Both the position numbers and the translations under genes were made by a program. Shown here piece by piece: positions 22,795 to 52,152 of a DNA stretch of 64,000 bases. The stretch spans positions 1,612,001 to 1,676,000 of the forward strand of contig NZ_AP023243.1 in assembly GCF_016756495.1 (NCBI RefSeq). Reading direction: 5' to 3'. Below the pieces are notes generated by a model. The model saw only the letters and a program-made list of their open reading frames with translations, ran no database searches and was not told the origin of the DNA. The stretch's first letter is position 1, and each line of letters opens with the position of its first letter. The stretch comes from Mesorhizobium sp. 113-3-3 (GTDB taxonomy: Bacteria > Pseudomonadota > Alphaproteobacteria > Rhizobiales > Rhizobiaceae).

Positions 22795-22804
22795 GTTAAT
22801 ATCC

Positions 22805-22827: not shown

Positions 22828-22908
22828 ATCCGTTGCAGGTGGTTCGGTTTGGTGTAGCATTGAAATGTTCAAGGCGGATCTAACCGCCGTACTCGGGAGG
22901 AAGCTGAG

Positions 22909-24183: not shown

Positions 24184-24193
24184 AGCTCAAAGA

Positions 24194-24223
24194 CTGGGAC
24201 CGCCCTGCCCAGAACGGTCCCAG
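24194..24223 (+). repeat. stem-loop between binding-protein and permease genes
   Basis: Perfect 9-bp arms (CTGGGACCG / CGGTCCCAG) with a 12-nt spacer lie in the 59-bp gap after the binding-protein stop. Such stems commonly reduce expression of downstream permeases relative to the binding protein. Confidence 0.5.
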
Positions 24224-24242
24224 CCATCCTTGAGGAAGAGCC

Positions 24243-25966: not shown

Positions 25967-26005
25967 GGCGCCGGCAAGTGCACCGCAATGCCGGAGGGCA
26001 CGGGT

Positions 26006-27091: not shown

Positions 27092-27117
27092 GCCTGCGAT
27101 CCTTCTTTCCTACATAA

Positions 27118-27142
27118 TTTCGGATAAATACCCGATGTCAAG
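27118..27142 (-). promoter_or_regulatory. promoter with shared operator-like motif, ATPase gene
   Basis: On the minus strand TTGACA is followed after exactly 17 nt by ATTATG, a plausible -35/-10 pair. The spacer holds TCGGGTATTTATCCGAA, the element also seen before abfA and the binding-protein gene. A repressor bound there would block RNA polymerase directly. Confidence 0.6.
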
Positions 27143-27256
27143 GAACTATGGGCGGCGAACCGATCAGGCGGCCCAACGCCGCATTGACCTGGCGGGGCGT
27201 CGGCAGTCTCCTAGGGGCGCCCTTCGGTGTTCAACGTCTGATCGAGGAAATGAAAG

Positions 27257-29909: not shown

Positions 29910-29933
29910 TGGTGGTCCCGACAGGAATCGAAC
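29910..29933 (-). repeat. tRNA-Arg 3'-end fragment, probable attachment-site copy
   Basis: These 24 bases match the 3' end (T-loop to CCA) of the tRNA-Arg gene at 52076-52099 with one mismatch and in the same orientation. There is no anticodon or D arm here. The one difference restores a Watson-Crick pair with position 2 of the tRNA-Arg acceptor stem, so this copy could be the displaced original end. Confidence 0.7.
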
Positions 29934-32261: not shown

Positions 32262-32296
32262 CGTCGCCTCTCGAACGCAATCTCCCGGCTCGCCGA

Positions 32297-33640
32297 TTAC
32301 TGCGCTTGCAGCAACGCGTTCGCAGCCTTCACCACCTCAGCGGTTTCGGTCGCGGTGCGCCGGGTGATCGTCGGCCTCATGTCGCCGCCGGCCTCACGCC
32401 CCCAGCCGAAGTTGCGCACGTTCCATCTGTCTTTCGGGAGCACCGTGTCCGCTACGCCTTCGATCTTGGTCGTCGGAGACTTGCTTCTCAGCAGCCGGGT
32501 CTCCGTATGGCAACTGACACAATCGGTGTTGAAGAAATGGCTCTTCGACGGATCGGCGATGATATTCGTCAGGGTTATCGTGTCCTGCTCGGTCGGTGAC
32601 GCCTTGAGCAACGTCGCCGTGGAAACGCCTTTGCGATCGCTTGGCGGTCGAGAGCAAATCGTCATGGTCTCATTCAAATTGTCGGAGATGGGGGCCGGGA
32701 TCACTTTGTCTCCGAAAAACCGTACCAATTCGGCAGTTGCGTTGCCATCGAGCGCCGGGCTTGGAACCGCCACCAATTTCCCCGTGCCGGGTTGCCTCTG
32801 CATGGCGATGAAAATCCATGGCTCGGGGTCGGATTTCGGCAATCCCATGGCTGCCATGGAGCCGAGTTGTCCAGCCGAAAGGTTCTTGTCCAGGATTTCC
32901 ACCAGACGATCACGGAATGGTTTCCTCGCCTTGGGGTCCGCGAGCGCGGGATGGATATCGAGAAGACCCTGCGTGGTGATCGGCGTGGCTCCAAAGGTCC
33001 CTTTGGCCAGATCGTCGCGCAGCGACACGAAGGCGGCGAGCGTCGCTCGAAAATGAATGAAGTCGGGATCGACCTTAGGCAGCGGCTGCTTTATGCAAAT
33101 CTCCTGTGGTTTCGGTATTCCTCCGATAAAACTGAAGATCATATGAGCGGCGCGGTCGTGGATTTTGAGCTTGCCGTCCTCAATAGTCACGGGCTGCAGG
33201 ATCAGGCGGACCTGCGGAATCTGGCCGAACGCTGTCATGATGTTTTTCGACAGGCCTGGCGCGCCGACATCGACACGGATGCCGGCGATGAACCAGTTCT
33301 TGATATCCTCGACACCATCCGGGAGACCGATCTGTGCCGGTGGTCCGCCAGGGACAGCGATTTTGCTGGCATCACCGGCCGCGATCGCCAGAAACTCCTG
33401 GAACCGCGGGACAGAAACCAGTGGCGTGCCGCTGGCGTCGGCCAAGTCCGCGACGGAAATGAAATTGACAAGGTCGGCCGCGTCTTTCGGCGCCGGGAAC
33501 AGGATCGACACGTCGAGGGGATGAAGCGGCGCGGGCGCGTCGGCGACCACTGCCGGCGAGGTAAAGCTCAGTATCGCGGCAAACGCCATCGCGCCGGCTG
33601 CCAGGATTGTCCTTCGATAGGCCCCTATAGATTTCGACAT
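32297..33640 (-). CDS. secreted protein with one c-type heme motif
   Basis: About 447 residues from ATG 33640 (MSKSIGAYRR). The upstream extension to 33688 has no merit. A signal peptide ends near PAVVADAPA. I do not recognise the family. The only clear motif is CVSCH near residue 380 (TDCVSCHTETRLL), one covalent heme site. Operon position upstream of the RoxA-like gene suggests an electron-transfer or accessory partner for it. Low similarity to any enzyme I know. Confidence 0.7.
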   Translation of the reverse strand: MSKSIGAYRRTILAAGAMAFAAILSFTSPAVVADAPAPLHPLDVSILFPAPKDAADLVNFISVADLADASGTPLVSVPRFQEFLAIAAGDASKIAVPGGPPAQIGLPDGVEDIKNWFIAGIRVDVGAPGLSKNIMTAFGQIPQVRLILQPVTIEDGKLKIHDRAAHMIFSFIGGIPKPQEICIKQPLPKVDPDFIHFRATLAAFVSLRDDLAKGTFGATPITTQGLLDIHPALADPKARKPFRDRLVEILDKNLSAGQLGSMAAMGLPKSDPEPWIFIAMQRQPGTGKLVAVPSPALDGNATAELVRFFGDKVIPAPISDNLNETMTICSRPPSDRKGVSTATLLKASPTEQDTITLTNIIADPSKSHFFNTDCVSCHTETRLLRSKSPTTKIEGVADTVLPKDRWNVRNFGWGREAGGDMRPTITRRTATETAEVVKAANALLQAQ

Positions 33641-33699
33641 ATTTTGCCCCCCGGCTATGTTGAAAGTGTTTCCTGCTCCGTTGTCCAAAGGCGTGGTCG

Positions 33700-34909: not shown

Positions 34910-35638
34910 TCAATTCGAAAGTCTTGCCACGTGAGCCGCGATCTCGGCGCGGTTGGAGCATTCGAGCTTCGACAGGCAATTGCCCAGATGCGTGCGGACC
35001 GTAGCGAAGCCGATGTTCAGCACGCGAGCAATATCCTTGTCGGAGCAGCCGCGCGCGACAAGCAATGCGACGTCGCGCTCCCTGTCCGTCAGCTGTTCCA
35101 GGCTAACTCCTGGCGCTATCGACAGGGCACGCCGCACGAAGGGCGCAAGGGCCGCGAGAAGATCGAGCTCCCGGTTGCCGAAATCGGGGCGGGACTTGGT
35201 CCGCCAAACCCTCAAATCAGCGAGTTCCCGACCGTCGCGATGCATGAACAGGTTGACGCCGTGCTGCATTCCATCGCGCGCGAGGAAATCGTTGTAGAAT
35301 TCGGTCTTGTTCAGTTCGCGTTTTGAGATGACTTCCGCCACATGCGCCGGGCGCCGGAGATCGCGCAGCTTGTCCGTCATCGGATCGCGGTACTGAAACC
35401 ACTTCTGGTACCGTGCGACGTTCTCGGGGGCCTGATTTATCATGAACGGCTTGCAATAGGATTTGCTGTGCTTGTCCCATTCGAAGGACGCCAGCACATC
35501 TGCTCGAAGCAAGGTCAGGATGTCAGGAAACACGACCTCGCGGACAGCGTCCTTCAAATTTTGAGCAGAAAGAGAACCGACGATGTTGGCAAAGATGCGC
35601 ACTTCGTCCGACGTCATGTCGTATATAGGACCAACCAC
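34910..35638 (-). CDS. LuxR-family transcriptional regulator
   Basis: A 242-residue regulator. The C-terminal LuxR helix-turn-helix is clear (LTDRERDVALLVARGCSDKDIARVLNIGFATVRTHLGNCLSKL, given here only as landmarks near residues 180-225). The N-terminal ~165 residues form a sensor domain with the pattern RYQKWFQYRDPMTDKL. This resembles LuxR solos, though the canonical acyl-homoserine-lactone residues cannot be assigned with confidence. No autoinducer synthase gene is nearby. It may control the amidase gene upstream of it on the same strand. Confidence 0.85.
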   Translation of the reverse strand: MVGPIYDMTSDEVRIFANIVGSLSAQNLKDAVREVVFPDILTLLRADVLASFEWDKHSKSYCKPFMINQAPENVARYQKWFQYRDPMTDKLRDLRRPAHVAEVISKRELNKTEFYNDFLARDGMQHGVNLFMHRDGRELADLRVWRTKSRPDFGNRELDLLAALAPFVRRALSIAPGVSLEQLTDRERDVALLVARGCSDKDIARVLNIGFATVRTHLGNCLSKLECSNRAEIAAHVARLSN

Positions 35639-35817: not shown

Positions 35818-37233
35818 TCAGTTCGGCAAGGACGGTGTCAGCGCAGGGAAATGGGTCTCCAGTTCGATCGCGATGTCGAGCAGAAGCCGGTCCGCTCCTG
35901 CCGCGGCGTCGAGCCCCAGTCCGACGGGCAAGCCTCGCCTGGTCAATCCAACAGGGATGGTTATACCGGGAATGCCCGCGTTGCTGCCGATATCGGTGTT
36001 GTGAATTGCGGTCTGGAACAGCGGCTCCGGCTTGCCGTTCAACATCACCGTCTCATCCTCGCCTATGAGCGGCGCGGCGATCAGCGAGGTGGGAAATGCA
36101 AGCACGTCCAGAGAATTGTCACGAAAGAGGCGACGGTAGATTTCCTGTATCGCGGGGCGATGAACGCTGAGCGCCTCGGCATAGGTTGCGTCGGGTATCG
36201 CCGTTTCGGCACCCAATTGGCTCATCAGTATCGCGCGAACATCGCTTGCAGCTATGCCTTTGGCGACGGCCTCGAGCGATTGCCCCACCGCATGGGCATC
36301 AAGGAACTCCTGCAAGGTCACCTTTCCTTCGAAAACCGCGATCGTCGTTGTCGATGCGAGATGGTGCTGCAGCAACTGACTTGCCTTGACAGGCACCAGT
36401 TCGGCCCCAAGCTGCTCCAGGAGCCGCAACGCTCGCTCGCAGATAGCGGAAACCTCAAGATCGGCCATGCTCCAGAACAGATCGTTGGCAATCCCAATTC
36501 TCAGTCCGCTGAGTACCTGCGGCCTGGGAACCTGCGGTACACCGACCACAACGCTGTCGAGGAGAGCGAGATCGCTGGGTGAGCGGGTGATAGGGCCGGG
36601 CGTATCGCGTGTGATGGATATTGGAACGATGCCCGTTCGCGGCCAGCGACCCGGCGTCGGCCGGAAACCCCACAGCCCGCAGAAGGAGGCGGGTACTCTG
36701 ACCGAACCGCCGGTGTCCGTGCCTATGCTTGCCGGCACCATCCGGGCGGCGACGGCGCAGGCGCTTCCTCCGCTCGATCCACCGCAGACGTGTCTGGTGT
36801 CGAAAGGATTGAGCGAGGGCCCGAAGAGAGCGTTGTTTGTTGTCGCGCCATAAGCCAGCTCGTGCATGTTGTTCTTGCCGAAAACGATTGCGCCGGCAAG
36901 CTTGAACGCCTTGGCGACTGGCGCATCCTCCTCGGGGCGAAAGTCACGCATGGCTGGTGTGCCAGCTGTCGTCGGATAGCCGCGTACGTTGATGTTGTCC
37001 TTGAACGATAATGGGACGCCATGAAGGGGACCGACTGCCTCTCCCGAGGCGGTGATGCGGTCGGCTTCGGCGGCCGCCGACAGCGCCGCCTCGGCATTCA
37101 GCGACGCGAAGGCATTGTAGCCCTGGAGCGTTTCTGCTCTGTCGATCAAGGCTCCCACGATCTCGACAGCTGTAACCTGCTTGGAAGAAACAAGTCTCGC
37201 GATATCGGTGCAATTCAAGTCTGAAGCAATCAT
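35818..37233 (-). CDS. amidase-signature family amidase
   Basis: A 471-residue cytoplasmic amide hydrolase. The Ser-cisSer-Lys triad is in place: Lys in PLSFKDNINV, the first Ser in CGGSSGGSACAV, and the nucleophile Ser in GTDTGGSVRVPASFCG. I chose ATG 37233 (MIASDLNCTDIARL), since the longer frame to 37380 is unlike the family. Within this island it would convert the amide made by nitrile hydratase to the acid and ammonia. It is not in the nitrile hydratase operon, and other amides are possible. Confidence 0.88.
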   Translation of the reverse strand: MIASDLNCTDIARLVSSKQVTAVEIVGALIDRAETLQGYNAFASLNAEAALSAAAEADRITASGEAVGPLHGVPLSFKDNINVRGYPTTAGTPAMRDFRPEEDAPVAKAFKLAGAIVFGKNNMHELAYGATTNNALFGPSLNPFDTRHVCGGSSGGSACAVAARMVPASIGTDTGGSVRVPASFCGLWGFRPTPGRWPRTGIVPISITRDTPGPITRSPSDLALLDSVVVGVPQVPRPQVLSGLRIGIANDLFWSMADLEVSAICERALRLLEQLGAELVPVKASQLLQHHLASTTTIAVFEGKVTLQEFLDAHAVGQSLEAVAKGIAASDVRAILMSQLGAETAIPDATYAEALSVHRPAIQEIYRRLFRDNSLDVLAFPTSLIAAPLIGEDETVMLNGKPEPLFQTAIHNTDIGSNAGIPGITIPVGLTRRGLPVGLGLDAAAGADRLLLDIAIELETHFPALTPSLPN

Positions 37234-37805
37234 CTTGCGCTTTCGGTTCGATGGCGATTGGGGCGCGAAAGGCGCTGGGATGCCTTGTTGCCTGAACTCA
37301 ATCGCAAACTCAGCTTGTGCTTGCCGCTGGCCCGACCTTTGATGGCGCGAGGAAACGTTGCAATCCCCTTGCGCACTCATGAGCGTCAGGCACTGGTGGC
37401 CCCGTGGTGCTGGAAGTTCCTCAAGGCACGGGACTGTTTCGGCTGGCGCCGGGGTAGTTGTTCCGAAGTCTCGCTGCAGACATGCTGATGCCCGGTTTGG
37501 TTTCGGGAACTATCGACCGGGCCGCGTAGTATTCGCTATCCACATTATTGTGGACCAAACGAGATCAGGGTCTCTAGGCACGCGGACGGCGGCCCACCAT
37601 CGCTTCGCCACCGCGGTCAAGCCAAACGGTGCCTTTCTCGCGCCGATACCACCCGGCGGCCTCTGCCTGCCGGATTTCGATCAAGGTATTGCAGGCGGCC
37701 GGGGGCGCGTTCGGTGCGCAGGCGCCATGAATGATGATCCGCTTGCCCACGGGCTCCGTGACAGTTGAGGACCAGACCCTTGCCGATCAGGGCCAATTCG
37801 GCGTT
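37234..37805. other. 572-bp gap with a possible gene relic and a palindrome
   Basis: No intact gene is seen between the amidase start and the pobA stop. On the minus strand, 37574-37750 is open from a GTG and would give 58 residues (KRIIIHGACAPNAPPAACN... ending GGEAMVGRRPRA), possibly a relic, unassigned. A palindrome TCCACA-TTAT-TGTGGA at 37539-37554 could be an operator for the amidase gene downstream of it on the minus strand. Confidence 0.4.
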
Positions 37806-40167
<2,362 letters not shown>

Positions 40168-40171
<4 letters not shown>

Positions 40172-41598
40172 GGTTTGCGCGCGGGGATGTGGTGGCCAAC
40201 GAAAGCAAGCGAGAGGGCGAGACCGATCATGGCGAGCGCCAGCATCAGGAGATAGCCATCCTTCCCGCCGATCGTGATCACCGTTGCACCGGCAAAGGCA
40301 CTGAGGATGGCCCCAAGCCGACCAAAGGCGAGGGCGGAGGCCGTGCCGGTGGCCCGGACCGTCGTCGGGTAGACGTACGCGCAGACGGCATACATGGTCG
40401 ACTGCACGGCATTGGCGAAAAAGCCTTGCACGCCGAACCCGGCTATCAGGATGCCCGTCTCCAGCTTGGTGTTCACGCCGGTCAGGTAAAGCGCGGTGGC
40501 GGCACCCAGAAGGCTGCACAGCAGGAGCGGCCAGCGCGAACCATACCGCGTGATGGTCATGGCGCATATCAGTGCGCCGAACACGCCCCCGAAGTTGTAA
40601 GCCGTTAGACCGGATCCGGCGATCGCGACGTCGAGCCCTTCGGAAGTCAACATCGTCGGCAGCCAGGTGAAGGCGCTGTATACGGCAAGCAAATTGAGAA
40701 AGAAGGCGCACCAGAGCGCAATCGTGTCGCGCGCCCGGCCGTTTTCGAACAAGGCAAGCAGGCCCTCGCGCTTCCCGATCTGCTGCTCGCCCAAATCTGT
40801 GAAGACAATATCGGCCGGAACTGGTCGCGACATGCGTCCGACGAGCCGGCGCAGCTCTTCCCATCGTGCCGGCCGGCGCACCAGAAAGCGGGGCGTTTCT
40901 GGGAGAATGAACAGCAGAATGAAGCCCAGGAGCACGGCCAGAGCACCGCCAAGAAAGAACAGGGCCCTCCAACCGAGATTTGGCAGGACTACACCGGCGA
41001 ACAGGCCGGCGAGCATGCCTCCAAGCGGGACGCAGACGATGGTCGCGGTAATGGCGAGCGTCCGACGCCGCGCGGGTGTGAATTCCGCCGCGACGGTGGT
41101 GGCGCTTGGCAAGGCGCCGCCGATGCCTAGCCCCGCGATAAATCGCAAGGCGCCGATCTGCCAGAGGTTTTCTGCGAAGCCGATGCAGAAGGTCGCCAGC
41201 CCGAAGACCATCACGCTGACGATCACGGCCCCGCGTCGTCCAAACCGGTCAGCGAGTAGACCGGCGAAGGCGCTTCCTATTCCCATTCCGACCAGCCCGG
41301 CCGCAAGTGCGGGAGCAAAGTCGCCGCGGGTAACGCCCCACTCCTTGATCAGAACCGGGACGGCGAAGCCAATCAGTTGCCCATCGAACCCGTCCATGAT
41401 GATCGACATGGCGGCCATGAGGACGACGAGCTTCTGGACGACGGTCCAAGGGCCATTATCGAGAAGCTGCCCGATGTCCAAGGAGGGATTTGCGCTGCCG
41501 CCGCTACCGCCCACCTCACCGGGAAGGCGAACTGCACCGTTGCCGGTAGCCGGGATGGTCGGAGCGGACGTAGGGCCCTTTGGGTACGATCCTGTCAC
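40168..41598 (-). CDS. MFS transporter, aromatic acid:H+ symporter (PcaK/BenK-like)
   Basis: A 476-residue permease with twelve hydrophobic helices after a ~45-residue Gly/Pro-rich N-terminal tail. Signatures DGFDGQLIGFAVP in the first helix and GLLADRFGRRGA in the loop 2-3 region are those of the aromatic acid group. It likely imports mandelate, 4-hydroxybenzoate or related acids. It overlaps the small upstream ORF and the mandelate dehydrogenase gene by 4 bp each, so translation is coupled. Confidence 0.9.
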
Positions 41599-41932: not shown

Positions 41933-42323
41933 TCAGAACGGGTAATGTCGTTCGCTTGTCTGGATAGTGATCCAGCGGAGGTCGGTGAACTCAGCGATTC
42001 CTGCCTTGCCTCCGATCCGCCCGTATCCGCTATCCTTGACTCCTCCGAACGGCATCTGGGCTTCGTCATGCACGGTCGGGCCATTGATATGGCAGATCCC
42101 GGACTGGATGCGGGACGCGAGGAGCGCGACGCTCCGAGGGCCCTGTGGCAGCCCAGTTCGGGAAGGCTGTGGCGGCTGCTTCCACGGCCGCAACCGCATC
42201 GCCCGCCGTTGCTGCCGGCGCTCGCGTTGCGATCTGGCCATCGAGTGGATTTGCGCGCTCAAACGTGGCCTTACCGGTGGCCGCTTCTGGTTCGCCGTCG
42301 ATCAGCATCGAAATTGTGTTCAT
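41933..42323 (-). pseudogene. internally deleted aromatic aldehyde dehydrogenase
   Basis: The start (MNTISMLIDGE, ATG 42323 with GGGGAGGAAG before it) and about 65 following residues, to ATGPSERRA, match the N-terminus of salicylaldehyde/vanillin dehydrogenases. The sequence then jumps, in another frame, to the last ~65 residues (SRIQSGICHINGPTVHDEAQ, MPFGGVKDSGYGR, ending SERHYPF). About 330 residues with the catalytic Cys and Glu are missing. It stands in the operon just after the decarboxylase gene, where the benzaldehyde-oxidising enzyme would be expected. Confidence 0.88.
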
Positions 42324-42345: not shown

Positions 42346-43971
42346 TTATTGGTGCACGTCTCTGTCCTCGACCTCGACTTCAATCAGAGTTGGTCGCTCG
42401 GATGAAATTGCCTCGGCAAAAGCGTCATGCAGGCCTGTGGCATTCCTGACATGAACTGAGGAGCAACCCAGGCCCCTCGCAATCGAGACGAAATCGAGCC
42501 CGGGAAGGTCGGTGCCCTGGACATGCTCTTGCGAACTAAAGCCGAACACGGGTGCGAAATCCTGTAGCGCTGCGTAGCGCCCGTTCTTGAGAATGACGAA
42601 CGTGACGGGCAGACCGAGTTGCACCGCGCTCCAGATTGCCTGGATCGAGTAGAGGCTCGAGCCATCGCCCACCAGTGCGACCACGCGGTGGCCGGGCTTG
42701 CCGAGCGCTACGCCCACGGCCGCCGGCATGCCGTAGCCGAGTCCGCCGCTGTCCATCGTGTAGAAGGCTCCGCTCTGCGTGATGGGCAAATGCGTCTGCA
42801 TTACGGATCGGGCGCCTGGCGCCTCCTCGACGATAATGCCGTCCGCAGGTTTTGTGTCTGCAATGGTTTGCATGACATACGCAGTTGAGAGCGGCACCGT
42901 CGGCATTACCCTCGGCGCGATAGCGCGCGCCGGCGGCGCCCCGCGCTTCGTCGGTGTCGCGCGAGCAAGAAGATCCAGCAGCCCGAGTCGCACGCTGCCG
43001 ATCGCGGCCATTCCCTGCGGCGTCCAGGCGGCGGTCTGGGGATCGTCGGTCAACTGGCAGAGTTCGGCTCCGGCCGGCAGATGCGGCCCGAACCCCTCGA
43101 CATGATAAGAGAAAGCCGGCGCGCCGATAGCGAAGACGAGGTCGTGGCCCTGAAGCAGGCCGACGATCTTGTCGCGGATCGCAGGCAGGAATCCGGCGAA
43201 CAGAGGATGATCCTCCGGGAAGCTGCAACGCCCGGACATGGGCGCAGCGAAGACTCTGGCGTTGTGTGCCTCGGCGAGCAGGCGCGTTTCGTCGAATGCC
43301 TCGTCGCGATCGACAGCCGCCCCGACGACGAACACGGGTCGTTTCGCATCGTCTAGCGCGTTTCCGATCTTTTCGAGGATGGCGGCATCGGGGCGGACCC
43401 GCTGGCTGACGATCCGCGATGGCACGTACTCCGCGGCGCGATCCCAGTCGTCGACGGGCACCGAGACCAAAACTGGACCGCAGGGCTGCGTCATCGCCAC
43501 GTAGTAAGCGCGCGCGATGGCGAGGGGCACGTCCTCTGCGCGAGCGGGCTCGACGCTCCATTTCACATAGGGCTTGGGAAGCTCGGTTGCTTCCCGGGAG
43601 GCGAGAAACGGATCGAAAGGGAGGATGGAGCGGGCCTGCTGTCCGGCCGTGATCACGAGGGGCGTTCGGTTCTTGAACGCGGTGAAGACGTTTCCCATCG
43701 CATTGCCTACACCTGCCGCCGAATGCAGGTTGACAAAAGACGCGTTGCGGGTCGCTTGCGCGAACCCGTCGGCCATACCGACGACGACGGCCTCCTGGAG
43801 CCCGAGAATGTAGCGGAAGTCTTCGGGGAAGTTCCGGAACAACGGCAATTCCGTCGATCCGGGGTTGGCGAAGATCGACGTCATGTTGAGACGACGCAGC
43901 AGATCGATGGCGGCATCCCGCACGGTCGGCGCGCTCACGCGTCGCAACTCCGGCGCGTCGACAATACCCAT
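42346..43971 (-). CDS. mdlC: benzoylformate decarboxylase
   Basis: A 541-residue thiamine-diphosphate enzyme converting (4-hydroxy)benzoylformate to the aldehyde and CO2. Key residues of the Pseudomonas enzyme can be matched: Ser in NPGSTELPLF, the ThDP Glu in LGLQEAVVVGMADG, His in NLHSAAGVGNAMG, and His in AFSYHVEGFG. The Mg-ThDP motif begins at VALVGDGSSLYS and ends near KNGRYAAL. It is the first gene of the catabolic operon, divergent from the LysR gene. Confidence 0.9.
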   Translation of the reverse strand: MGIVDAPELRRVSAPTVRDAAIDLLRRLNMTSIFANPGSTELPLFRNFPEDFRYILGLQEAVVVGMADGFAQATRNASFVNLHSAAGVGNAMGNVFTAFKNRTPLVITAGQQARSILPFDPFLASREATELPKPYVKWSVEPARAEDVPLAIARAYYVAMTQPCGPVLVSVPVDDWDRAAEYVPSRIVSQRVRPDAAILEKIGNALDDAKRPVFVVGAAVDRDEAFDETRLLAEAHNARVFAAPMSGRCSFPEDHPLFAGFLPAIRDKIVGLLQGHDLVFAIGAPAFSYHVEGFGPHLPAGAELCQLTDDPQTAAWTPQGMAAIGSVRLGLLDLLARATPTKRGAPPARAIAPRVMPTVPLSTAYVMQTIADTKPADGIIVEEAPGARSVMQTHLPITQSGAFYTMDSGGLGYGMPAAVGVALGKPGHRVVALVGDGSSLYSIQAIWSAVQLGLPVTFVILKNGRYAALQDFAPVFGFSSQEHVQGTDLPGLDFVSIARGLGCSSVHVRNATGLHDAFAEAISSERPTLIEVEVEDRDVHQ

Positions 43972-44043: not shown

Positions 44044-44072
44044 TAAGAAGGGAGAAGTCATTACACTTGGTT

Positions 44073-44990
44073 ATGGCATTGAGCGTCGAGCAACTGGCGA
44101 CTTTCACGGCGATCGTCAAGGCGGGAAGCCTTGGCCGGGCGGCCATCGTGCTCAACATGACGCAGCCCGCACTCAGCCGAGCCATCAAGCGCCTTGAGGA
44201 GCAGCTTGGGACCGATCTCTTCGAGCGCCACTCAAAAGGCATGCAGCTGACCGAGATCGGGAAGGCCTTTCTGCCGCACGCCACTTCGCTGCATGCCGGG
44301 GCCGCACAGGCCCTGGAGGAGATTCAAGCCTTGCGTGGCGGGGGAAAGGGTACCGTTCGCGTTGGCGCGGTCGCAAGCATTGCCAGTTCGATCCTGCCGC
44401 CCGCCATCGAGCGCACGCTACGAAAATGGCCCGGGCTGCACTTCGATGTCGTGGAAGGCGTTTGGGATTTGTTGGCCGCGGGTCTTGCGAAACACGAGAT
44501 CGATCTCGCCCTTGGCGCGGAATCGCCTGACACGGATGAAATTGTGGCGATTCGTGATTGCCGGTGGCAGGACACCAGTCATATCATCGTTGCTGCGGAG
44601 CATCCGCTCAGGCGCCGGCGCAAGCTGGCTCTCGGTGATACTCTCCAGGAGAGATGGACTATCCCGCCGGCCGGTACCGGTCCTCACCAGCATCTCGAAC
44701 GCGTTTTCGCCGAGCAGGGTCTCGGGCTGCCTGATATCGTCGTCAGAACGCGCTCGATCACCGTGCTCAAGAGCCTTGTCGTCGACTCCGGCTTCCTGAG
44801 CTGGATGGCGGAGCCAATGTTCGAGCCCGAACGACGTGCGGGATTGGTCGCACCCCTCTCGATTGCGGGGGTGGATGGACGTCGTACCCTTGTGGCATTT
44901 CGTCGGCGCCGCGGCCTGCTTCCGGTTCCGTCTTTGAAACTGCTGGATGAACTAAGAGGACTGACGTCGAGCACAAATAGTAAGAGCTGA
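44073..44990 (+). CDS. LysR-family transcriptional regulator
   Basis: A 305-residue regulator from ATG 44073. A TTG at 44067 is in frame but less likely. The N-terminal winged helix is typical (FTAIVKAGSLGRAAIVLNMTQPALSRAIKRLEEQLG; motif within residues 10-45). The effector domain begins near GTVRVGAVASIASSIL. Placement back-to-back with mdlC predicts control of the mdlC-pobA operon by an aromatic inducer such as mandelate or benzoylformate. Confidence 0.9.
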   Translation: MALSVEQLATFTAIVKAGSLGRAAIVLNMTQPALSRAIKRLEEQLGTDLFERHSKGMQLTEIGKAFLPHATSLHAGAAQALEEIQALRGGGKGTVRVGAVASIASSILPPAIERTLRKWPGLHFDVVEGVWDLLAAGLAKHEIDLALGAESPDTDEIVAIRDCRWQDTSHIIVAAEHPLRRRRKLALGDTLQERWTIPPAGTGPHQHLERVFAEQGLGLPDIVVRTRSITVLKSLVVDSGFLSWMAEPMFEPERRAGLVAPLSIAGVDGRRTLVAFRRRRGLLPVPSLKLLDELRGLTSSTNSKS

Positions 44991-45260: not shown

Positions 45261-45881
45261 ATGGCGGGCGAGATGAGCCACCAAGATCATACCGTACCAC
45301 CGTCCGATCCGGCGCTTAGGATCAAGGCGATTGAAACCTTGATGGTTGAAAAGGGGAAGATCGACCCCGGCGCCGTTGCAGAGATTGTGGACATTTTTCA
45401 GAACAAACTCGGCCCGCGTGTCGGTGCAAAGGTGGTCGCTCGTGCCTGGACCGACCCGGATTTTAAACAGCGACTTTTGGCAGATGGCACGGAGGCTCTG
45501 AAAGAGCTGAATGTGAGCGGTCTTCAGGGTGAAGCCATGGTGGTCCTGGAGACCACGCCGGAAGTTCACAACGTTATCGTCTGCACGCTCTGCTCCTGTT
45601 ATCCATGGACGGTACTTGGTCTGCCGCCTACTTGGTACAAATCCGCGCCATATCGCAGCCGCATCGTCATCGAGCCGCGCGCGGTGCTTGCCGAGTTCGG
45701 CTTGAAGATATCGAGCGACTGCGAAGTAAGGGTGTACGACAGCAATGCGGAGATCCGCTACATGGTCCTGCCCATGCGACCTGACGCAACCGAGGACTGG
45801 AGTGAGGAGAGACTAGTCGAGCTCGTGACGCGAGATTCCATGATCGGAACCGGCATCCCCCTTTCCCCACATCGGTCTTGA
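45261..45881 (+). CDS. nthA: nitrile hydratase alpha subunit, cobalt type
   Basis: Up to 206 residues; ATG 45273 (MSHQDHTV) has the better GGGCGAG site and would give 202. The metal centre CTLCSC lies in [10 protein letters not shown] near residue 115. Thr at the second position marks the cobalt form, whereas iron enzymes have Ser. The flanking [10 protein letters not shown] and [11 protein letters not shown] segments are standard for alpha subunits. The enzyme hydrates a nitrile to the amide in the cytoplasm. The gamma subunit of thiocyanate hydrolase is a close relative, but it is longer (~240) as I recall. Confidence 0.93.
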
Positions 45882-45894
45882 AGGGAGAGCAACG

Positions 45895-46212
45895 ATGCAC
45901 TCCATAGCAGACATGGGTGGGATGCAGGGGTTTGGCCCTGTTGTGAGGAATGACGACGAGCCGCTTTTCAAGGCCGAATGGGAAGAGACGACTTTCGCGG
46001 TGAACCTTCTTTTACTTGCCGCCGGCTGCTTCAATATCGACGAAAGCCGCCATTCCATGGAACGCATGGCGCCGCTCGAATATCTCAAGACATCCTACTT
46101 CGAACACTGGCTACACTCACTTGAGGATCTTCTGATAGCGAAAGGCATCGTCACCAGGGAAGAGTATGATGCCCGGCTGGCCCAACTCGCTGTAAAAGGG
46201 AGCGATCTCTGA
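45895..46212 (+). CDS. nitrile hydratase beta subunit, N-terminal half as separate gene
   Basis: A 105-residue protein equal to the helical N-terminal domain of a normal beta subunit: SIADMGGMQGFGPV at the start, EWEETTFAVNLL, then RMAPLEYLKTSYFEHWLHSL. AGGGAGAG precedes the ATG. It ends with TGA inside TGATG, where the C-terminal half gene begins at once. In ordinary enzymes both halves form one ~220-residue chain. The break is in the linker and both parts look intact, so this seems a genuine three-subunit enzyme rather than damage. Confidence 0.9.
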   Translation: MHSIADMGGMQGFGPVVRNDDEPLFKAEWEETTFAVNLLLLAAGCFNIDESRHSMERMAPLEYLKTSYFEHWLHSLEDLLIAKGIVTREEYDARLAQLAVKGSDL

Positions 46213-46559
46213 TGCTGCCGAAAGAGATGGTCGCCACTGCAATCGCTACTGGCGCCTCGACATTGCGGGAAGTAGACACCAAGCCTTGTTTCAAGCCGGG
46301 TGACGAGGTCCGGACAGTTAACGACAGCCCGGCTACACACACGCGCTTGCCACGCTACGCAGCCGGCAAGAATGGAACGATCGTCGCCTGTGAAGGGGCG
46401 CATGTCTTTCCCGATAAACATGGTCATGGGCGAGGGGAGTGCCCGGAGCATCTTTATCGCGTGCGTTTTGACAGCGCCGCACTTTGGGGGAGCAGCAATG
46501 ATGGCCCCGGCGCCGTCTATCTGAGCCTTTGGGAAAGTTACCTGCAGGCTGAGGAGTGA
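46212..46559 (+). CDS. nitrile hydratase beta subunit, C-terminal half as separate gene
   Basis: A 115-residue protein equal to the SH3-like C-terminal domain of beta: FKPGDEVRTVNDSPATHTRL, PRYAAGKNGTIVACEGAHVF, YRVRFDSAALWG and the ending VYLSLWESYL. The arginines that reach the metal site are in the RLPRYAAG part. Its start overlaps the previous stop as TGATG, and its translation probably depends on termination-reinitiation, giving equal amounts of both halves. Known split-beta relatives are thiocyanate hydrolase and, as I recall, toyocamycin nitrile hydratase. Confidence 0.9.
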   Translation: MLPKEMVATAIATGASTLREVDTKPCFKPGDEVRTVNDSPATHTRLPRYAAGKNGTIVACEGAHVFPDKHGHGRGECPEHLYRVRFDSAALWGSSNDGPGAVYLSLWESYLQAEE

Positions 46560-46563
46560 GTTC

Positions 46564-47028
46564 ATGGTTGCAGATGAACGCGAAATTGGCCCCGAATGGC
46601 TCGAAAACGGTCCCGCCTTTTCCGAGCCGTGGCAGGCGGAAGCCTTTGCGGTCGCGGTGCAGCTGTCACGAGAAGGCCATTTCGGTTGGAACGAATGGGT
46701 GAACGTCTTCTCCGAAGAGATAAGGTCATCACCTCAACGGGAAGGTGAGGCAGTCAATGCCGCCTACTACCGCCAATGGATGCTGGCCCTGGAGAAGATC
46801 GCGACGAACGCAGGTTTTCTCACAATCAAGGAGATCCGCGAATATAGCGAACACTGGCGCCGATCCTATTACCATACTGCGCATGGCCAGCCGATAGATT
46901 TCCGCAAGGATCTCGAGCCCATCCCGGACGGTGCCCTTGAGGAGCTTGATCACGATCACTCCGAGGATCACGAACATGATCACCATGTCGGTCCGGTGGC
47001 GATCAGCCCTGCACTGGCTCGACCGTAA
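46564..47028 (+). CDS. nitrile hydratase accessory protein (activator) with His/Asp-rich tail
   Basis: A 154-residue protein resembling the beta N-terminal domain (EPWQAEAFAVAVQLSREGHF; YYRQWMLALEKIATNAGFL). This is typical of NhlE/P14K-type chaperones, which deliver metallated alpha subunit by subunit exchange. Unusually, its C-terminus holds LDHDHSEDHEHDHH (about residues 128-141), a likely cobalt-binding stretch. It starts 4 bp after the beta C-half. A clear terminator closes the unit 37 bp after the stop. Confidence 0.88.
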   Translation: MVADEREIGPEWLENGPAFSEPWQAEAFAVAVQLSREGHFGWNEWVNVFSEEIRSSPQREGEAVNAAYYRQWMLALEKIATNAGFLTIKEIREYSEHWRRSYYHTAHGQPIDFRKDLEPIPDGALEELDHDHSEDHEHDHHVGPVAISPALARP

Positions 47029-47255: not shown

Positions 47256-48560
47256 ATGACTCTTTCAAAGAACACGCGGGGACTGACCCGCCGCAAGCTC
47301 CTTGAGGTGGTGGGGACTGGCGCAGTCGCGGGTGCCGTTTCATCCATTCTGCCTGCACCTGCCATCGCGTCGGCGCCCACACTGCGTATTGGGTACATCA
47401 GCCCGCAGACAGGAGCTCTCGCACCATTTGCCGAAGCCGATCCCTTCATGCTCGGCAAGGTTCGTGAAGTCCTGAAAGATGGACTCAAGGTCAACGGCAC
47501 AAACTACAAGGTGGAAATCACCGCCATCGACGACCAATCGAACTCCGACCGCTCGGCAACATCCGCAAGCCAGCTCATCAATGGCAACGGCGTCAATTTG
47601 ATGCTCGCTCAGGGCGCGCTGACCAATGTACCGGTCGCTTCGCAATGCGAAGTCGCCGGTGTTCCGTGCATCACCACGATGGATCCCTGGCAGGGCTGGA
47701 TGTTTCCGCTCAATGGCAAACCCGACAAGGGCTTCAGTTACGTAAATCACTTCTTCTGGGGCATCGAGGACATCATCCAGACATTCATCGGCATGTGGGA
47801 TGGCCAGCAAACCAACAAGATAGTTGGCACCGTTTGGTCAAATGATCCCCCCGGCAAGGTTTTCGCCAACCCGGAAATCGGTTTCCCGGCATCGCTTGGC
47901 AAAGGCGGCTACAAGGTTGTCGATGTCGGGACCTTCCAGCCTGGCGCGGATGACTTCTCCCGTCAGATCGTCGCTTTCCGCGATGCCGGATGTGACATTG
48001 TCACCGGTCTGTTTGCTCCGCCCGAATGGGCTGTTTTTTGGCGCCAGGCGCAGCAACTCGGTTTCAAGCCGAAGATTGCGACCCCGGCCAAGGCGCTTCT
48101 GTTTCCATCTGGCGTCGAAGCCCTCGGCCAGAATGGCGACGGCATGTCTACCGAAATCTGGTGGGCGCCAAGCTACCCGTTCAAGTCCACGCTGACCGGT
48201 CAATCATGCAAGGAGCTTGCAGACGACTACCAGAAAACCACAAGCAAGCGATGGACGCAGCCAATTGGCGTCATTCACGCACTTTGGGAGGTCGGCATCA
48301 ATGCGCTGAAGAACGCGGCCGATCCGACAGATCCCGATGCCGTTCAGAGCGTCATCAAGAACACGAAGTTGACGACGGTGGTCGGGGACATCGACTGGGC
48401 TGGAAGCCCGATCAAGAACGTCGCGAAACTGAAGATTGCTGGCGGTCAGTGGCGTCTCCAGCCAGATGGCAAATACGATCTGAAGGTGACCTACAACAAG
48501 AACGCGCCTGAGGTCCCTGTCCAGGCGGATTTCACCATGACCCTTGGCGCGAAAGCTTAA
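47256..48560 (+). CDS. Liv/amide-type ABC transporter substrate-binding protein
   Basis: A 434-residue secreted protein. The leader has a twin-arginine-like start (LTRRKLLEVVGTGAVAG) and is cleaved near AIASAP. The mature part is a type I periplasmic binding fold of the branched-chain amino acid/amide group (RIGYISPQTGALAPFAEAD; DDFSRQIVAFRDAGCDIV; VIHALWEVGINALKNA). It heads a complete importer operon right after nitrile hydratase, so a nitrile, amide or aromatic acid is the likely ligand rather than leucine. Confidence 0.9.
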   Translation: MTLSKNTRGLTRRKLLEVVGTGAVAGAVSSILPAPAIASAPTLRIGYISPQTGALAPFAEADPFMLGKVREVLKDGLKVNGTNYKVEITAIDDQSNSDRSATSASQLINGNGVNLMLAQGALTNVPVASQCEVAGVPCITTMDPWQGWMFPLNGKPDKGFSYVNHFFWGIEDIIQTFIGMWDGQQTNKIVGTVWSNDPPGKVFANPEIGFPASLGKGGYKVVDVGTFQPGADDFSRQIVAFRDAGCDIVTGLFAPPEWAVFWRQAQQLGFKPKIATPAKALLFPSGVEALGQNGDGMSTEIWWAPSYPFKSTLTGQSCKELADDYQKTTSKRWTQPIGVIHALWEVGINALKNAADPTDPDAVQSVIKNTKLTTVVGDIDWAGSPIKNVAKLKIAGGQWRLQPDGKYDLKVTYNKNAPEVPVQADFTMTLGAKA

Positions 48561-48563
48561 GTC

Positions 48564-49322
48564 ATGGAGGCGACTGGCACGTCTCCGGCCCTCGTTGTCC
48601 AAAATGTCATAAAATCCTATGGCGGGCCGGTCGTGCTGAATGGGGTGAGCATCAAAGTCGATCCCGGGACAATTCTCGGGATCATCGGCCCCAACGGTTC
48701 GGGAAAGACTACTCTTTTCGGCGTCATTTCCGGCGCCTTTGCGCCGTCCTCAGGCGAAGTGTTTCTGAACGGGATCGACGTAACACCACTTCGTGCATCG
48801 GCTCGAGCGGTGGCCGGTATCGGCCGCACGTTCCAGATACCCCAAACCTTTGCGCACATGACGGTTTTCGAGAATGTTCTGGTCGCCGCCAGATTCGGTG
48901 CGGCCCTCCCGAACCACGAAGCTGAAACCACCGCGTTTGAGGTGCTCCAAACGTGTGGTCTTCATGATCGCGGCGATACGATCGCAGGGACGCTACCTCT
49001 TCTGGATCGCAAGCGCCTGGAACTGGCTCGAGCACTGGCGACGAGACCTTCGGTGCTTCTGCTGGACGAGATTGCGGGGGGGCTTACCGATGACGAGGCC
49101 GCGGGAGTGGCCAAGCTCGTTCAGACATTTGCACGGAGTGGCGTTGCAATCATCTGGATCGAGCACCTCGTGCATGTATTGACCAATACGGCTGATCAAC
49201 TGGCCGTTCTGGGTGATGGGCAAATTATTGCCCACGGCGATCCGCAACAGACCATGCAGATGCCGAAAGTCAGGCAGATCTACCTCGGCATGGAGCCGGA
49301 TAGCCATGATAACAGTAACTGA
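48564..49322 (+). CDS. Liv-type ABC transporter ATP-binding protein (LivG-like)
   Basis: A 252-residue ATPase with Walker A GPNGSGKTT, Q-loop GRTFQIPQTFAHMT, Walker B VLLLDEIAGGLTDDE and switch region WIEHLVHVL. The signature is unusual (LPLLDRKRLELARAL, without the LSGG core). It begins 3 bp after the binding-protein stop, and its end overlaps the second ATPase gene. Confidence 0.92.
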   Translation: MEATGTSPALVVQNVIKSYGGPVVLNGVSIKVDPGTILGIIGPNGSGKTTLFGVISGAFAPSSGEVFLNGIDVTPLRASARAVAGIGRTFQIPQTFAHMTVFENVLVAARFGAALPNHEAETTAFEVLQTCGLHDRGDTIAGTLPLLDRKRLELARALATRPSVLLLDEIAGGLTDDEAAGVAKLVQTFARSGVAIIWIEHLVHVLTNTADQLAVLGDGQIIAHGDPQQTMQMPKVRQIYLGMEPDSHDNSN

Positions 49323-50001
49323 TTTGAGGGCCGGCTACGGGCCCCTGCCGGTGCTATTTGGGATTAGCCTCGAAATGAGCCGGGGCGAGACGCTGGCTCT
49401 AATCGGCGCCAATGGCGCAGGCAAAACAACCACATTTGCCGTGCTCACGGGACGCATTAAGCCGCAATCCGGGCATGTAACCCTCCGGGGAGGCGACATC
49501 TCTTCGATGTCGCCGATGCAGATCGTTGGCGCGGGGTTGTCAATGGTGCCGGAAGGCCGTCAGCTCTTTCCAAGCCTGACGGTCGAAGAAAATCTTCTTG
49601 TCGGTGCTCATTGCCGGCGTTCCGGTCGATGGACCCTGGAGCGGGTCTACGAGATATTCCCAACGGTTGCGGAATTTCGCAAGCGACCATCCACGGCGCT
49701 TTCGGGCGGACAGCAGCAACTGGTCGCAATCGGTCGCGCCTTGATGTCCAACCCGGACGTTCTGCTATGCGACGAGCTTTCGCTTGGCCTTTCTCCCGTC
49801 GCGGTCGACACGGTCTATGTTGCGTTCGACAGGTTAAGGTCCGAAGGGCTGACCACGATCCTTGTCGAGCAGGACATTGCCAGAGCGCTTTCGGTCTCCA
49901 ACCGCTTTGCCTGCGTGCGGCACGGTCAGATCGTGCTTACCGGCGCTTCCGCTAACGCAGACCGCGCCGAAATTTCGCACGCCTATTTCGGGATGCACTG
50001 A
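49306..50001 (+). CDS. Liv-type ABC transporter ATP-binding protein (LivF-like)
   Basis: A 231-residue ATPase from ATG 49306, overlapping the LivG-like gene by 17 bp. Walker A GANGAGKTT, signature LSGGQQQLVAIGRAL, Walker B VLLCDELSLGLSP, and the LivF pattern LSMVPEGRQLFPSLTVEENL are all present. It forms the ATPase pair with the previous gene. The permease gene starts one base after the stop. Confidence 0.93.
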   Translation: MITVTDLRAGYGPLPVLFGISLEMSRGETLALIGANGAGKTTTFAVLTGRIKPQSGHVTLRGGDISSMSPMQIVGAGLSMVPEGRQLFPSLTVEENLLVGAHCRRSGRWTLERVYEIFPTVAEFRKRPSTALSGGQQQLVAIGRALMSNPDVLLCDELSLGLSPVAVDTVYVAFDRLRSEGLTTILVEQDIARALSVSNRFACVRHGQIVLTGASANADRAEISHAYFGMH

Positions 50002-50002: not shown

Positions 50003-50863
50003 ATGTTGGAAACGCTCATCAATGGAGCACTGGTCGGAGCACTGTACGGTCTTTACGGTCTCGGTTTGTCACTGTGCTTGGGACTCATGCGACAGATCAA
50101 CATGGCGCATGGGGACTTTATCGTATTCTCTGCCTTCTTGGCGTTGCAGGTAACCGGCTTCCTCGGCATTCATCCTCTTTTGGCAATGCCCCTCATCGCG
50201 TTGATTATGTTTGCGGTGGGTTGGGCGGTGCAGCGCCTTTTCATCGAACGTACCCTTGGTCGTGGCGATATGCCGCCAATTCTCGTGACTTTCGGCTTGT
50301 CGATCATTCTCCAAAACGTGATGCTGGAGCTTTTCAGCGCCGATACGAGAAGTCTTGATCCGGGTGCGCTCGGGGCTGCGGCGGTTAAGCTTGGTCCGGT
50401 GACCGTCGGTATTCTGCCTCTCCTGACGCTTGTCGTATCAGTCGGCATTTTCGCCGTCACGGCCAAGATCTTTGGCGCCACACGCTTTGGCCGCGCAGTT
50501 CGTGCAACCTCCGACAACGAGCAAACGGCGCAGTTGATGGGGATCGCCACCAAGAAGGTATTCGCGAACGCAATGGGGGTGGCATTGGCAATATCGGCTG
50601 TCGCGGCAATCTTCTACGGAATGCGGGGAACATTCGACCCCTCGACCGGCCCCGAACGTATGCTCTTTGCTTTCGAAGCCGTCATCCTGGGAGGTCTGGG
50701 TTCCGTTTGGGGCACACTTTTCGGAGGCATTATTCTCGGCCTGTCGCAGTCCGCGGGAACGCTGATTATCCCGAGCCTCGGTCCCCTGGTCGGACACCTC
50801 GTGTTTCTTGTCGGGCTCCTCGCCGTGCCCAACGGTCTCTTCGCAAAGAGGGCGCGCACATGA
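50003..50863 (+). CDS. Liv-type ABC transporter permease (LivH-like)
   Basis: A 286-residue membrane protein from ATG 50003, with about eight helices. The characteristic NGALVGALYGLYGLGLSLCLG opening gives LivH-type membership, with GLMRQINMAHGDFIVF and the C-terminal VILGGLGSVWGTLFGG. The last codons overlap the LivM-like start (ATGA). Confidence 0.92.
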   Translation: MLETLINGALVGALYGLYGLGLSLCLGLMRQINMAHGDFIVFSAFLALQVTGFLGIHPLLAMPLIALIMFAVGWAVQRLFIERTLGRGDMPPILVTFGLSIILQNVMLELFSADTRSLDPGALGAAAVKLGPVTVGILPLLTLVVSVGIFAVTAKIFGATRFGRAVRATSDNEQTAQLMGIATKKVFANAMGVALAISAVAAIFYGMRGTFDPSTGPERMLFAFEAVILGGLGSVWGTLFGGIILGLSQSAGTLIIPSLGPLVGHLVFLVGLLAVPNGLFAKRART

Positions 50864-51876
50864 ACTCGGTTTCACCTTTTGCTCGTTCATTGTTCGCCCT
50901 GGCGATCACCGCCGCCATTCTGGTTGCCGTTCCGCTGGTGGCGTCGCGGCAAGCTGTCGTTCTAATCACGGAAGTCGCGGCGGTGTTGTCGATTGCCCTG
51001 ATGTGGAACTTGTTGGCGGGGTTCGGCGGCATTGTGTTCATGGGGTTTCAGGTTTTTATCGGTATCGGCGGCTACACCTTGTTCGTTGCAGCAAACAGCC
51101 TTGAACTGACACCTTTCCCCCTCGTCATCCTGTCGGCGCTGGTTTGCGCGACGTTCGGACTCGCCATCACGCCGGTCCTGTTCAGGTTAGGGGGCGCACA
51201 GCTTGCAATTGGTTCCTGGGTTGTTTCAGAAGTCGTGCGCCTTGTGGTGTATCACACCAATTCTCTCGGAGCCGGTGGCGGGATTTCCCTTACCGCAATG
51301 CGCGGAGTGAATCGCTCCGTCCGCATTCTGGCGACCTACAGTACGTCCGCAATAGTTCTCATGACCGCGCTTGTGCTCTGTGTCTTTCTGATGCGGGGCC
51401 GTTTCGGATTGGCTTTGCGTGCCATGAAGGATAGCCCGGTAGCCGCAGAAGCCATGGGCGTTCCGATCCGCAGGACACAGACATACATCCTTCTGATTAC
51501 GGCCGCGATTTCCGGAGCGGCCGGCGCCTGCTACTACATGATAGCCCTCCAGGTCAGCCCGACTGCCGCCTTTTCGGTGAACTGGATGGCGCTGATACTG
51601 TTTTCGGTCATCCTTGGTGGCATCGGCACCCTGGAAGGGCCCATTGTCGGCGTCGTCATCTACTTCGTGCTGCGTGAGACAATGGGCAATATCGGGTCAG
51701 TCTACTTCATCGTTCTGGGAATTCTCGCCATCGGCGTGACGCTCTTTGCGCCGGCTGGTGCGTGGGGCTTGCTAAGGACTGGGTTCAAGTTCGACGTGTT
51801 GCCCATCCGCAGGAAAATGCCCAGCGAGATAAATCTACGAGAGAGAAAAATCATCTCGGAAGCATCGCTGCTGTGA
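50860..51876 (+). CDS. Liv-type ABC transporter permease (LivM-like)
   Basis: A 338-residue membrane protein from ATG 50860 with about nine helices. LivM-type features are LMWNLLAGFGGIVFMGFQ, the cytoplasmic loop GLALRAMKDSPVAAEAMGV, and SVILGGIGTLEGPIVG. It is the last cargo gene of the putative island. Beyond it are ~200 bp without a gene (51877-52075) and then the tRNA. Confidence 0.92.
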   Translation: MNSVSPFARSLFALAITAAILVAVPLVASRQAVVLITEVAAVLSIALMWNLLAGFGGIVFMGFQVFIGIGGYTLFVAANSLELTPFPLVILSALVCATFGLAITPVLFRLGGAQLAIGSWVVSEVVRLVVYHTNSLGAGGGISLTAMRGVNRSVRILATYSTSAIVLMTALVLCVFLMRGRFGLALRAMKDSPVAAEAMGVPIRRTQTYILLITAAISGAAGACYYMIALQVSPTAAFSVNWMALILFSVILGGIGTLEGPIVGVVIYFVLRETMGNIGSVYFIVLGILAIGVTLFAPAGAWGLLRTGFKFDVLPIRRKMPSEINLRERKIISEASLL

Positions 51877-52075: not shown

Positions 52076-52152
52076 TGGTGATCCCGACAGGAATCGAACC
52101 TGTGACCTACAGATTAGGAATCTGCCGCTCTATCCTACTGAGCTACGGGACC
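52076..52152 (-). tRNA. tRNA-Arg (anticodon CCT)
   Basis: Read on the minus strand the sequence folds as a full cloverleaf. The acceptor stem is GGTCCCG/CGGGATC with one G-T wobble at pair 2-71. D stem GCTC/GAGC. Anticodon loop TTCCTAA on stem GCAGA/TCTGT. T loop TTCGATT within ACAGG/CCTGT. CCA is encoded. It decodes AGG. Its 3' end is duplicated at 29910-29933. Confidence 0.95.

Follow-up and report, generated by a model that had tools for sequence, protein, structure and literature searches.

Does the nitrile hydratase (NHase) locus of Mesorhizobium sp. 113-3-3, in which the beta subunit is spread over two adjacent genes, encode a working three-chain enzyme or a damaged two-chain one, and which nitriles would it serve? 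We examined this locus within a stretch of 64,000 nucleotides (contig NZ_AP023243.1 of assembly GCF_016756495.1, positions 1,612,001 to 1,676,000 of the forward strand), hereafter the window, in whose own numbering positions are given. In our assessment, the genes probably encode a three-chain cobalt-type NHase and its metallochaperone, which provide the first step of an aromatic alpha-hydroxynitrile pathway on an inserted segment.

A beta subunit in two genes

The NHase genes and their junction are laid out as follows:

45261..45881, + strand: nthA, cobalt-type NHase alpha subunit, 206 aa (Pfam, NCBIfam and PDB matches)
45895..46212, + strand: beta-N, N-terminal half of the NHase beta subunit as a separate gene, 105 aa (PF21006)
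46210..46214, + strand: TGATG stop-start overlap of beta-N and beta-C (sequence read directly)
46212..46559, + strand: beta-C, C-terminal half of the NHase beta subunit as a separate gene, 115 aa (PF02211)
46564..47028, + strand: NHase activator, presumed cobalt chaperone, 154 aa (TIGR03889)

Coordinates and lengths were as the initial annotation had claimed for nthA and two TGATG-joined beta halves of 105 and 115 aa. An alternative start for nthA (ATG at 45273) would give 202 aa. A threonine in the metal motif is the rule for cobalt-type NHases, and nthA carries VCTLCSC, which contains the Cys-Thr-Leu-Cys-Ser-Cys motif. The alpha subunit matched Pfam NHase_alpha (PF02979; 288 bits, E = 3e-86) and passed the curated NCBIfam model for NHase alpha subunits (TIGR01323; 294.9 over a cut-off of 249.85). 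Its best single-stretch PDB match was the cobalt-type NHase of Pseudomonas putida (3QXE_A; 292 bits, E = 1.4e-86), which has the same motif and residues but a beta subunit of one chain instead of two. Beta-N matched NHase_beta_N (PF21006; E = 9.8e-36) and beta-C matched NHase_beta_C (PF02211; E = 4.3e-32). Along the 226 positions of the one-chain beta model TIGR03888, beta-N covers 1-99 and beta-C covers 117-224. Their scores of 114.9 and 122.0 bits fall below its cut-off of 152.2, a shortfall of each half that marks the split variant. The activator scored 79.2 against TIGR03889 (cut-off 46) and ends in a His-rich tail, DHDHSEDHEHDHHVGPVAISPA. At the junction, CTCTGATGCTG, the beta-N stop and the beta-C start have one base in common, and Shine-Dalgarno-like sequences precede both ATG codons (AAGGGAG 7 nt upstream of beta-N and AAAAGGGAG 9 nt upstream of beta-C). 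We assign the locus to the cobalt-type NHases in split-beta form, with cobalt binding and activity predicted from sequence.

Arg52 and Arg157 of the beta subunit take part in NHase catalysis, and PDB entry titles include mutants of these very residues. Beta-N aligned ungapped to residues 1-91 of its best PDB match, 3QXE_B, with Arg52 kept, and beta-C aligned ungapped to residues 117-224 of 1IRE_B, with beta-C Arg45 at the position of Arg157. Both active-site arginines are thus present, one per half, and therefore lie on different chains. Residues R52, E56, Y68 and W72 were invariant among eight split beta-N sequences. Over 185 one-chain hits, counting near-copies, the median interdomain stretch was 19 aa, and the 11-aa tail of beta-N plus the 8-aa head of beta-C likewise come to 19 aa. 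Set against one-chain subunits, as the initial annotation had proposed, each half covers its own part and the total linker length is preserved. A structure model of beta-C (predicted local distance difference test, pLDDT, of 72.4) found 7w8m_B as its best Foldseek match in the PDB (E = 2.8e-10). It resembles NHase beta C-domains and also the alpha chain of thiocyanate hydrolase (SCNase; template modelling score, TM, of 0.71). The beta-N model, built from four sequences, had a pLDDT of 66.7.

A conserved neighbourhood and a proposed nitrile route

Among the best 80 loci in genome contigs, three split loci belong to the same clade as the window:

L035, Roseinatronobacter HJB301: split-beta NHase locus
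L036, Rhizobium tropici IGFRI Rhizo-19: split-beta NHase locus
L037, Sulfitobacter DFL-14: split-beta NHase locus

In the window, the NHase genes are flanked by the following:

34910..35638, - strand: LuxR-type regulator (a homologue adjoins the amidase in L036)
35818..37380, - strand: amidase of the amidase-signature family, indoleacetamide hydrolase type, with a probably internal true start (PF01425)
37806..38984, - strand: pobA-like 4-hydroxybenzoate 3-monooxygenase, start approximate
38999..40171, - strand: (S)-mandelate dehydrogenase homologue, a flavin mononucleotide (FMN) alpha-hydroxyacid dehydrogenase, start approximate
40168..41598, - strand: MFS transporter of the aromatic acid/H+ symporter type (TIGR00895 303.6, below the cut-off of 418.55)
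41933..42323, - strand: aldehyde dehydrogenase remnant (tblastn of the intact R. tropici homologue; family scan)
42346..43971, - strand: benzoylformate decarboxylase (NF005485 841.9, cut-off 493; PDB 4Q9D, E = 9.3e-133)
44067..44990, + strand: LysR-type regulator (family level; no model over cut-off among those shown)
47256..48560, + strand: ATP-binding cassette (ABC) substrate-binding protein (PF13458, E = 5.8e-29; homologues at the same place in L035-L037)
48564..49322, + strand: ABC ATP-binding protein 1, branched-chain/urea type (no model over cut-off among those shown)
49309..50001, + strand: ABC ATP-binding protein 2, start approximate
50003..50863, + strand: ABC permease 1
50857..51876, + strand: ABC permease 2, start approximate

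The FMN dehydrogenase had (S)-mandelate dehydrogenase as its best PDB match (6BFG; 437 bits, E = 5.2e-130), followed by lactate oxidase (286 bits, a 736-aa chain) and glycolate oxidase/4-hydroxymandelate oxidase (about 219), and no NCBIfam model exceeded its cut-off. The PobA-like protein passed subfamily model NF006091 (593, cut-off 351) and scored 504 against the equivalog TIGR02360 (cut-off 538.7). The aldehyde dehydrogenase remnant retains residues 1-66 and 421-482 of a 482-aa homologue, the middle being gone; an intact homologue is present in L207 (R. tropici).

Linkage of the amidase, hydroxy-acid dehydrogenase and importer to the split NHase is conserved. On one strand, L035-L037 share the order hydroxy-acid dehydrogenase, alpha, beta-N, beta-C, activator and five importer genes, with the amidase last in L035 and L037 and first in L036. 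Homologues (≥ 40% identity over ≥ 60% of length) of the amidase, mandelate dehydrogenase, substrate-binding protein, two ATPases and two permeases occur within 7 kb in all three, and the same set was found in 0 of the 77 other loci of the scan, four of which were shortened by contig ends. The cluster's hydroxy-acid dehydrogenase is the best match in its own genome for the window's genome (G000) and for G795, G796 and G797, and that of L036 is also nearest to (S)-mandelate dehydrogenase (E = 7.4e-132). Downstream of the three relatives' clusters (L207, L208 and L209) lies a thiamine diphosphate (ThDP) enzyme that passes NF006203. That benzoylformate decarboxylase belongs to the conserved cluster is unsupported, with none over cut-off in G795-G797; a ThDP enzyme of this other family does belong to it.

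From this neighbourhood of amidase, dehydrogenase, decarboxylase and importer we infer a route from nitrile to acid, in which the assembly of the enzyme, its substrate and the flux are predictions. Ribosomes would terminate beta-N at the TGA and re-initiate at the overlapping ATG, yielding the halves in about equal amounts. Both halves would pack on alpha like one beta subunit, and each active site would therefore have one arginine per half, with Arg52 of beta-N and the Arg157 equivalent of beta-C beside the cobalt-binding Cys-Thr-Leu-Cys-Ser-Cys claw. Cobalt would be loaded by the His-tailed activator. The importer would bring in an aromatic alpha-hydroxynitrile (mandelonitrile or 4-hydroxymandelonitrile), which the NHase would convert to the hydroxyamide and the amidase to the alpha-hydroxy acid and NH3. 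Mandelate dehydrogenase would then give the alpha-keto acid, and benzoylformate decarboxylase the aldehyde and CO2. Since the local aldehyde dehydrogenase is broken, another dehydrogenase would have to produce the aromatic acid, on which PobA would act. The neighbourhood suggests aromatic alpha-hydroxynitriles as substrates, with mandelonitrile-like compounds fitting best.

The mandelate pathway of P. putida includes mdlB and mdlC. As in that pathway, the window has homologues of mandelate dehydrogenase and benzoylformate decarboxylase in one cluster; unlike it, these are joined to an NHase and an amidase.

Several observations weigh against the proposed route. In the window, the NHase is encoded on one strand and the amidase, dehydrogenase and decarboxylase on the other, whereas in L035-L037 the amidase and dehydrogenase share the NHase strand. 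Benzoylformate decarboxylase was found in the window's genome only, and NF006203, the family of the relatives' ThDP enzyme, has no known function. None of the 80 loci had homologues of PobA, the MFS transporter or LysR, PobA falls short of its equivalog cut-off, and the window's aldehyde dehydrogenase is broken. The model for the amidase takes its name from indoleacetamide and not from mandelamide, and only two of the four clade amidases pass it. No beta-glucosidase was recognised in the window, where open reading frames (ORFs) were read and not all scanned; as for a glycosidase that might act on cyanogenic glycosides, ORF reading offered only a putatively arabinofuranosidase-like gene at 21277-22794, outside the repeats bounding the inserted segment. 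Confidence in the two structure models, each of one chain, is moderate (pLDDT 72 and 67), the meeting of beta-N and beta-C in one complex is a prediction, and the substrate is not readable from the NHase sequence.

The amidase bears on a competing reading, in which a three-subunit NHase acts on another arylacetonitrile, such as indole-3-acetonitrile, and feeds an indoleacetamide hydrolase that leads to auxin, the hydroxy-acid genes being mere neighbours. Against the indoleacetamide hydrolase equivalog NF005688 (cut-off 532), the amidases of the window (546) and L036 (543) pass and those of L035 (494) and L037 (513) fall short, and a rhizobial background also favours auxin. However, the (S)-mandelate dehydrogenase homologue stands directly before nthA in L035-L037 and is present in 4 of the 4 clade members read, and an auxin route needs no mandelate dehydrogenase, benzoylformate decarboxylase or PobA. 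We consider the auxin reading unlikely.

Returning to the alpha-hydroxynitrile route, excerpts of the literature state that mandelonitrile-like compounds arise from plant cyanogenic glycosides (PMC7193024). More tentatively, the cluster may be a mobile catabolic module with which soil and marine alphaproteobacteria use plant aromatic cyanohydrins for carbon and nitrogen, capturing the nitrile as an amide before HCN is lost and degrading it by way of an amidase, mandelate dehydrogenase and a ThDP decarboxylase, with the beta split and the His-tailed activator as adaptations of this line of enzymes; we put this forward as conceivable, with more doubt than confidence. If true, the pathway would tie NHase to a natural substrate class in a rhizobial system open to gene deletion; the NHase literature, as excerpted, is mostly on industrial nitriles and insecticides.

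Origin and recurrence of the split

Could the two halves instead be the remains of a one-chain beta gene that broke recently, while a second NHase does the work? The genome does hold a second NHase, of the ordinary one-chain type, at C1:3455881, and broken one-chain copies do occur elsewhere (L083, L177, L179 and L180). Yet a start codon lies near the break only in L083 (TTG), with none near in L177, L179 and L180, whereas in the window the break falls within the linker, a Shine-Dalgarno-like sequence precedes beta-C and the total linker length is kept. The split is also common to L035-L037. The ratio of nonsynonymous to synonymous substitution rates (dN/dS) was 0.08-0.09 for beta-N and 0.10-0.18 for beta-C in three of four pairs, the fourth pair having saturated dS. 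Purifying selection acts on both beta halves. A recent break is accordingly very improbable, and the split in three named relatives, the linker sum and dN/dS rule out a sequencing error or pseudogene. The initial annotation's reading of a naturally split beta with undamaged halves, a cobalt-type motif and a three-subunit NHase is supported. It had also named two outcomes that would overturn this reading, a sequencing error at TGATG or fused genes in close relatives with this one inactive, and neither held: stand-alone C-halves were found in several assemblies, and the clade loci read (L035-L037) are likewise split.

The TGATG itself is not kept in these relatives, a point on which the initial annotation had called for a check: L035-L037 overlap by 11 nt, and L034 (described below) has the TGATG with its single shared base. 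Other split lineages have ATGATG, TAATG, TAAATG or ATGA. Because relatives use several overlaps, we rejected TGATG as a conserved signature of the split. In two gammaproteobacterial split loci, L197 and L205, the overlap is longer and the beta-C start lies within the end of beta-N.

The protein collection gave 30 C-half matches, the first 13 of which are 115-121 aa long and 64-100% identical to beta-C. Nearest in the database came P0002 of Rhizobium bangladeshense (82%, 121 aa), which was seen as a protein and not as a locus. The remaining 77 of the best 80 loci comprised 75 with one-chain beta and two (L059 and L083) interrupted within or at the end of the beta-N part. A C-half match was present in 136 of 146 genomes of the genus; among the matches listed, the others were ≤ 50% identical and a split was detected only in the window's genome. 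At family level, 42 of 394 genomes had a C-half match at E ≤ 1e-28, with the own match 100% identical and, among the matches listed, other genomes ≤ 52% identical with open frames of ≥ 193 aa. Across the order (397 genomes), where we sought splits among the short-open-frame hits in the matches listed, genuine splits of other clades occur in at least G183, G186, G225 and G407; broken one-chain genes appear to account for G514 and for the loci of G071 and G091 in the genus. A plasmid of Neorhizobium EC2-8 carries the remnant of a decayed NHase cluster (L033, 2542-10321), in which a 72.5%-identical C-half adjoins a truncated importer permease, and neither alpha nor beta-N was found within the 20 kb read. 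This remnant is close to genes annotated as a GH3 glycosidase and a sugar ABC transporter.

To place the window among its relatives, we classified the beta genes in 242 loci and built a tree from alpha, beta-N and beta-C, disregarding beta-C hits below 50 bits. The table has 218 rows and leaves out L059, L083, L177, L179 and L180 as broken or doubtful one-chain genes; 74 of these rows (29 split, 45 one-chain) entered the tree after near-copy removal at alpha identities of 99% for split and 80% for one-chain rows. The window clusters with L035-L037 at 100/100 support. That the enzyme is an SCNase or a close relative, with three subunits and SCN- as substrate, has the same three-chain logic and the likeness of the beta-C model to SCNase alpha in its favour but is scarcely credible, given that nthA scores 202.1 against the SCNase gamma model TIGR03887 (cut-off 291.45), that a 100/100 branch separates the window from the SCNases (L191-L194) and their split relatives, that one clade of the window's group and these four loci is rejected (approximately unbiased test, p-AU = 2.2e-6) and that gene order at all four is betaN-betaC-gamma. 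We therefore rejected SCNase membership, and the kinship with SCNase that had initially been entertained found no support. Near the SCNase branch are further split, beta-first loci (L144-L148, L156, L195 and L229); those scored, all except L229, were below the SCNase cut-off and may serve another substrate class. Within it, the actinomycete loci L230 and L233 have a one-chain beta, opposite to what is usual for SCNases.

Actinomycete split loci (L219, L220, L222 and L223) form a separate clade, but joining them with the window in one clade was not rejected (p-AU = 0.227), and neither was one clade of 11 alpha-first splits without L197 and L205 (p-AU = 0.128). The split label needs six changes on the tree, at least five of them forced by well-supported branches, so splitting or fusion of the beta subunit took place several times. 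One common origin for every split was rejected, as a single change sufficed in 0% of 200 bootstrap trees. The tree, being unrooted, fits either direction, split-first or fused-first. Since split and one-chain beta alternate across it, the family offers a test case for gene fission and fusion in a metalloenzyme, one in which two active-site arginines land on different chains.

How new is this arrangement? The beta subunit of the toyocamycin enzyme is split too; no sequence of that enzyme was identified among the loci used. The SCNase of Thiobacillus thioparus (2DD4) has three chains equivalent to alpha, beta-N and beta-C, as in the window, but is distant in sequence and falls in a far clade. 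According to excerpts of two papers (PMC7329996; PMC13243292), the AnhD-AnhE-AnhA enzyme of Streptomyces canus CGMCC 13662 is an experimentally studied split-beta NHase. The initial annotation had named SCNase and the toyocamycin enzyme as split; its list lacked the S. canus NHase. Published masses of AnhD, AnhE and AnhA are 10.41, 11.35 and 21.33 (PMC7329996, in excerpt), and the chains of L220, with one choice of start codons, come to 10.39, 11.39 and 21.33 kDa; given this fit, we take L220 to represent the S. canus type on the tree. Like the window, the S. canus NHase has beta as N and C halves, three chains and cobalt. Its order is betaN-betaC-alpha with no activator, in contrast to alpha-betaN-betaC plus activator in the window, and the two types fall in separate clades. 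With the split published for S. canus and recurring across the tree, the architecture belongs to a known kind. The alpha-betaN-betaC order with a His-tailed activator and a catabolic setting seem new, and we found no description of the cluster among open-licence papers.

A close parallel in layout came from plasmid pUSP2 of Aminobacter sp. MSH1 (L034, 7337-11772), which has an amidase, alpha, beta-N, beta-C, a TGATG junction and a His-rich activator tail. Its halves are 43-45% and its alpha 65% identical to those of the window, cbtB/cbtA stand in place of the mandelate set, and its amidase is of a different family. MSH1 is a dichlobenil degrader, and pUSP2 is conjugative. Excerpts of the MSH1 genome paper mention only nitrile metabolism for pUSP2.

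His-rich activator tails were found in 8 of the 13 distinct alpha-first split loci with a detected activator, as against 0 of 155 alpha-first one-chain rows with an activator (near-copies kept, kinship ignored). The count of 8 in 13, together with tails in 5 of the 8 beta-first one-chain rows with an activator, ruled out the tail as a mark of all splits.

The inserted segment at tRNA-Arg

The NHase cluster lies on a segment of about 22 kb (29910-52099) bounded by 24-bp direct repeats at tRNA-Arg(CCT):

29910..29933, + strand: left direct repeat, 24 nt, 23/24 identical to the tRNA end
52076..52099, + strand: right direct repeat, the 3' end of tRNA-Arg(CCT), 52076-52152 (- strand)

GC content drops to 0.57-0.59 across 45-52 kb. 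In six same-genus genomes, alignment to the right of the site resumes from 52,066 or 52,076. To the left, L255, L258 and L259 align as far as about 19,992, the two flanks in L259 being 0.3 kb apart; L256 aligns over 20,051-27,146, and L254 and L257 gave no alignment in the 18-19 kb fetched. The tRNA 3'-end repeat and a site that is empty or differently filled in relatives are features of a tRNA-integrated island. No integrase was recognised by eye among the ORFs at 29.9-52.1 kb, where no integrase-model search was made, and we therefore call this an inserted segment rather than a proven self-mobile element. Given the different content left of tRNA-Arg in L254-L257, the site may be an insertion hotspot.

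At the segment's left end (29943-33688) lies a gene for a RoxA-like cytochrome of 772 aa; its neighbour encodes a 463-aa protein that has a CVSCH motif and gave no Pfam match. Further left, 19992-27146 is a second variable segment, with the arabinofuranosidase-like gene and a sugar ABC transporter.

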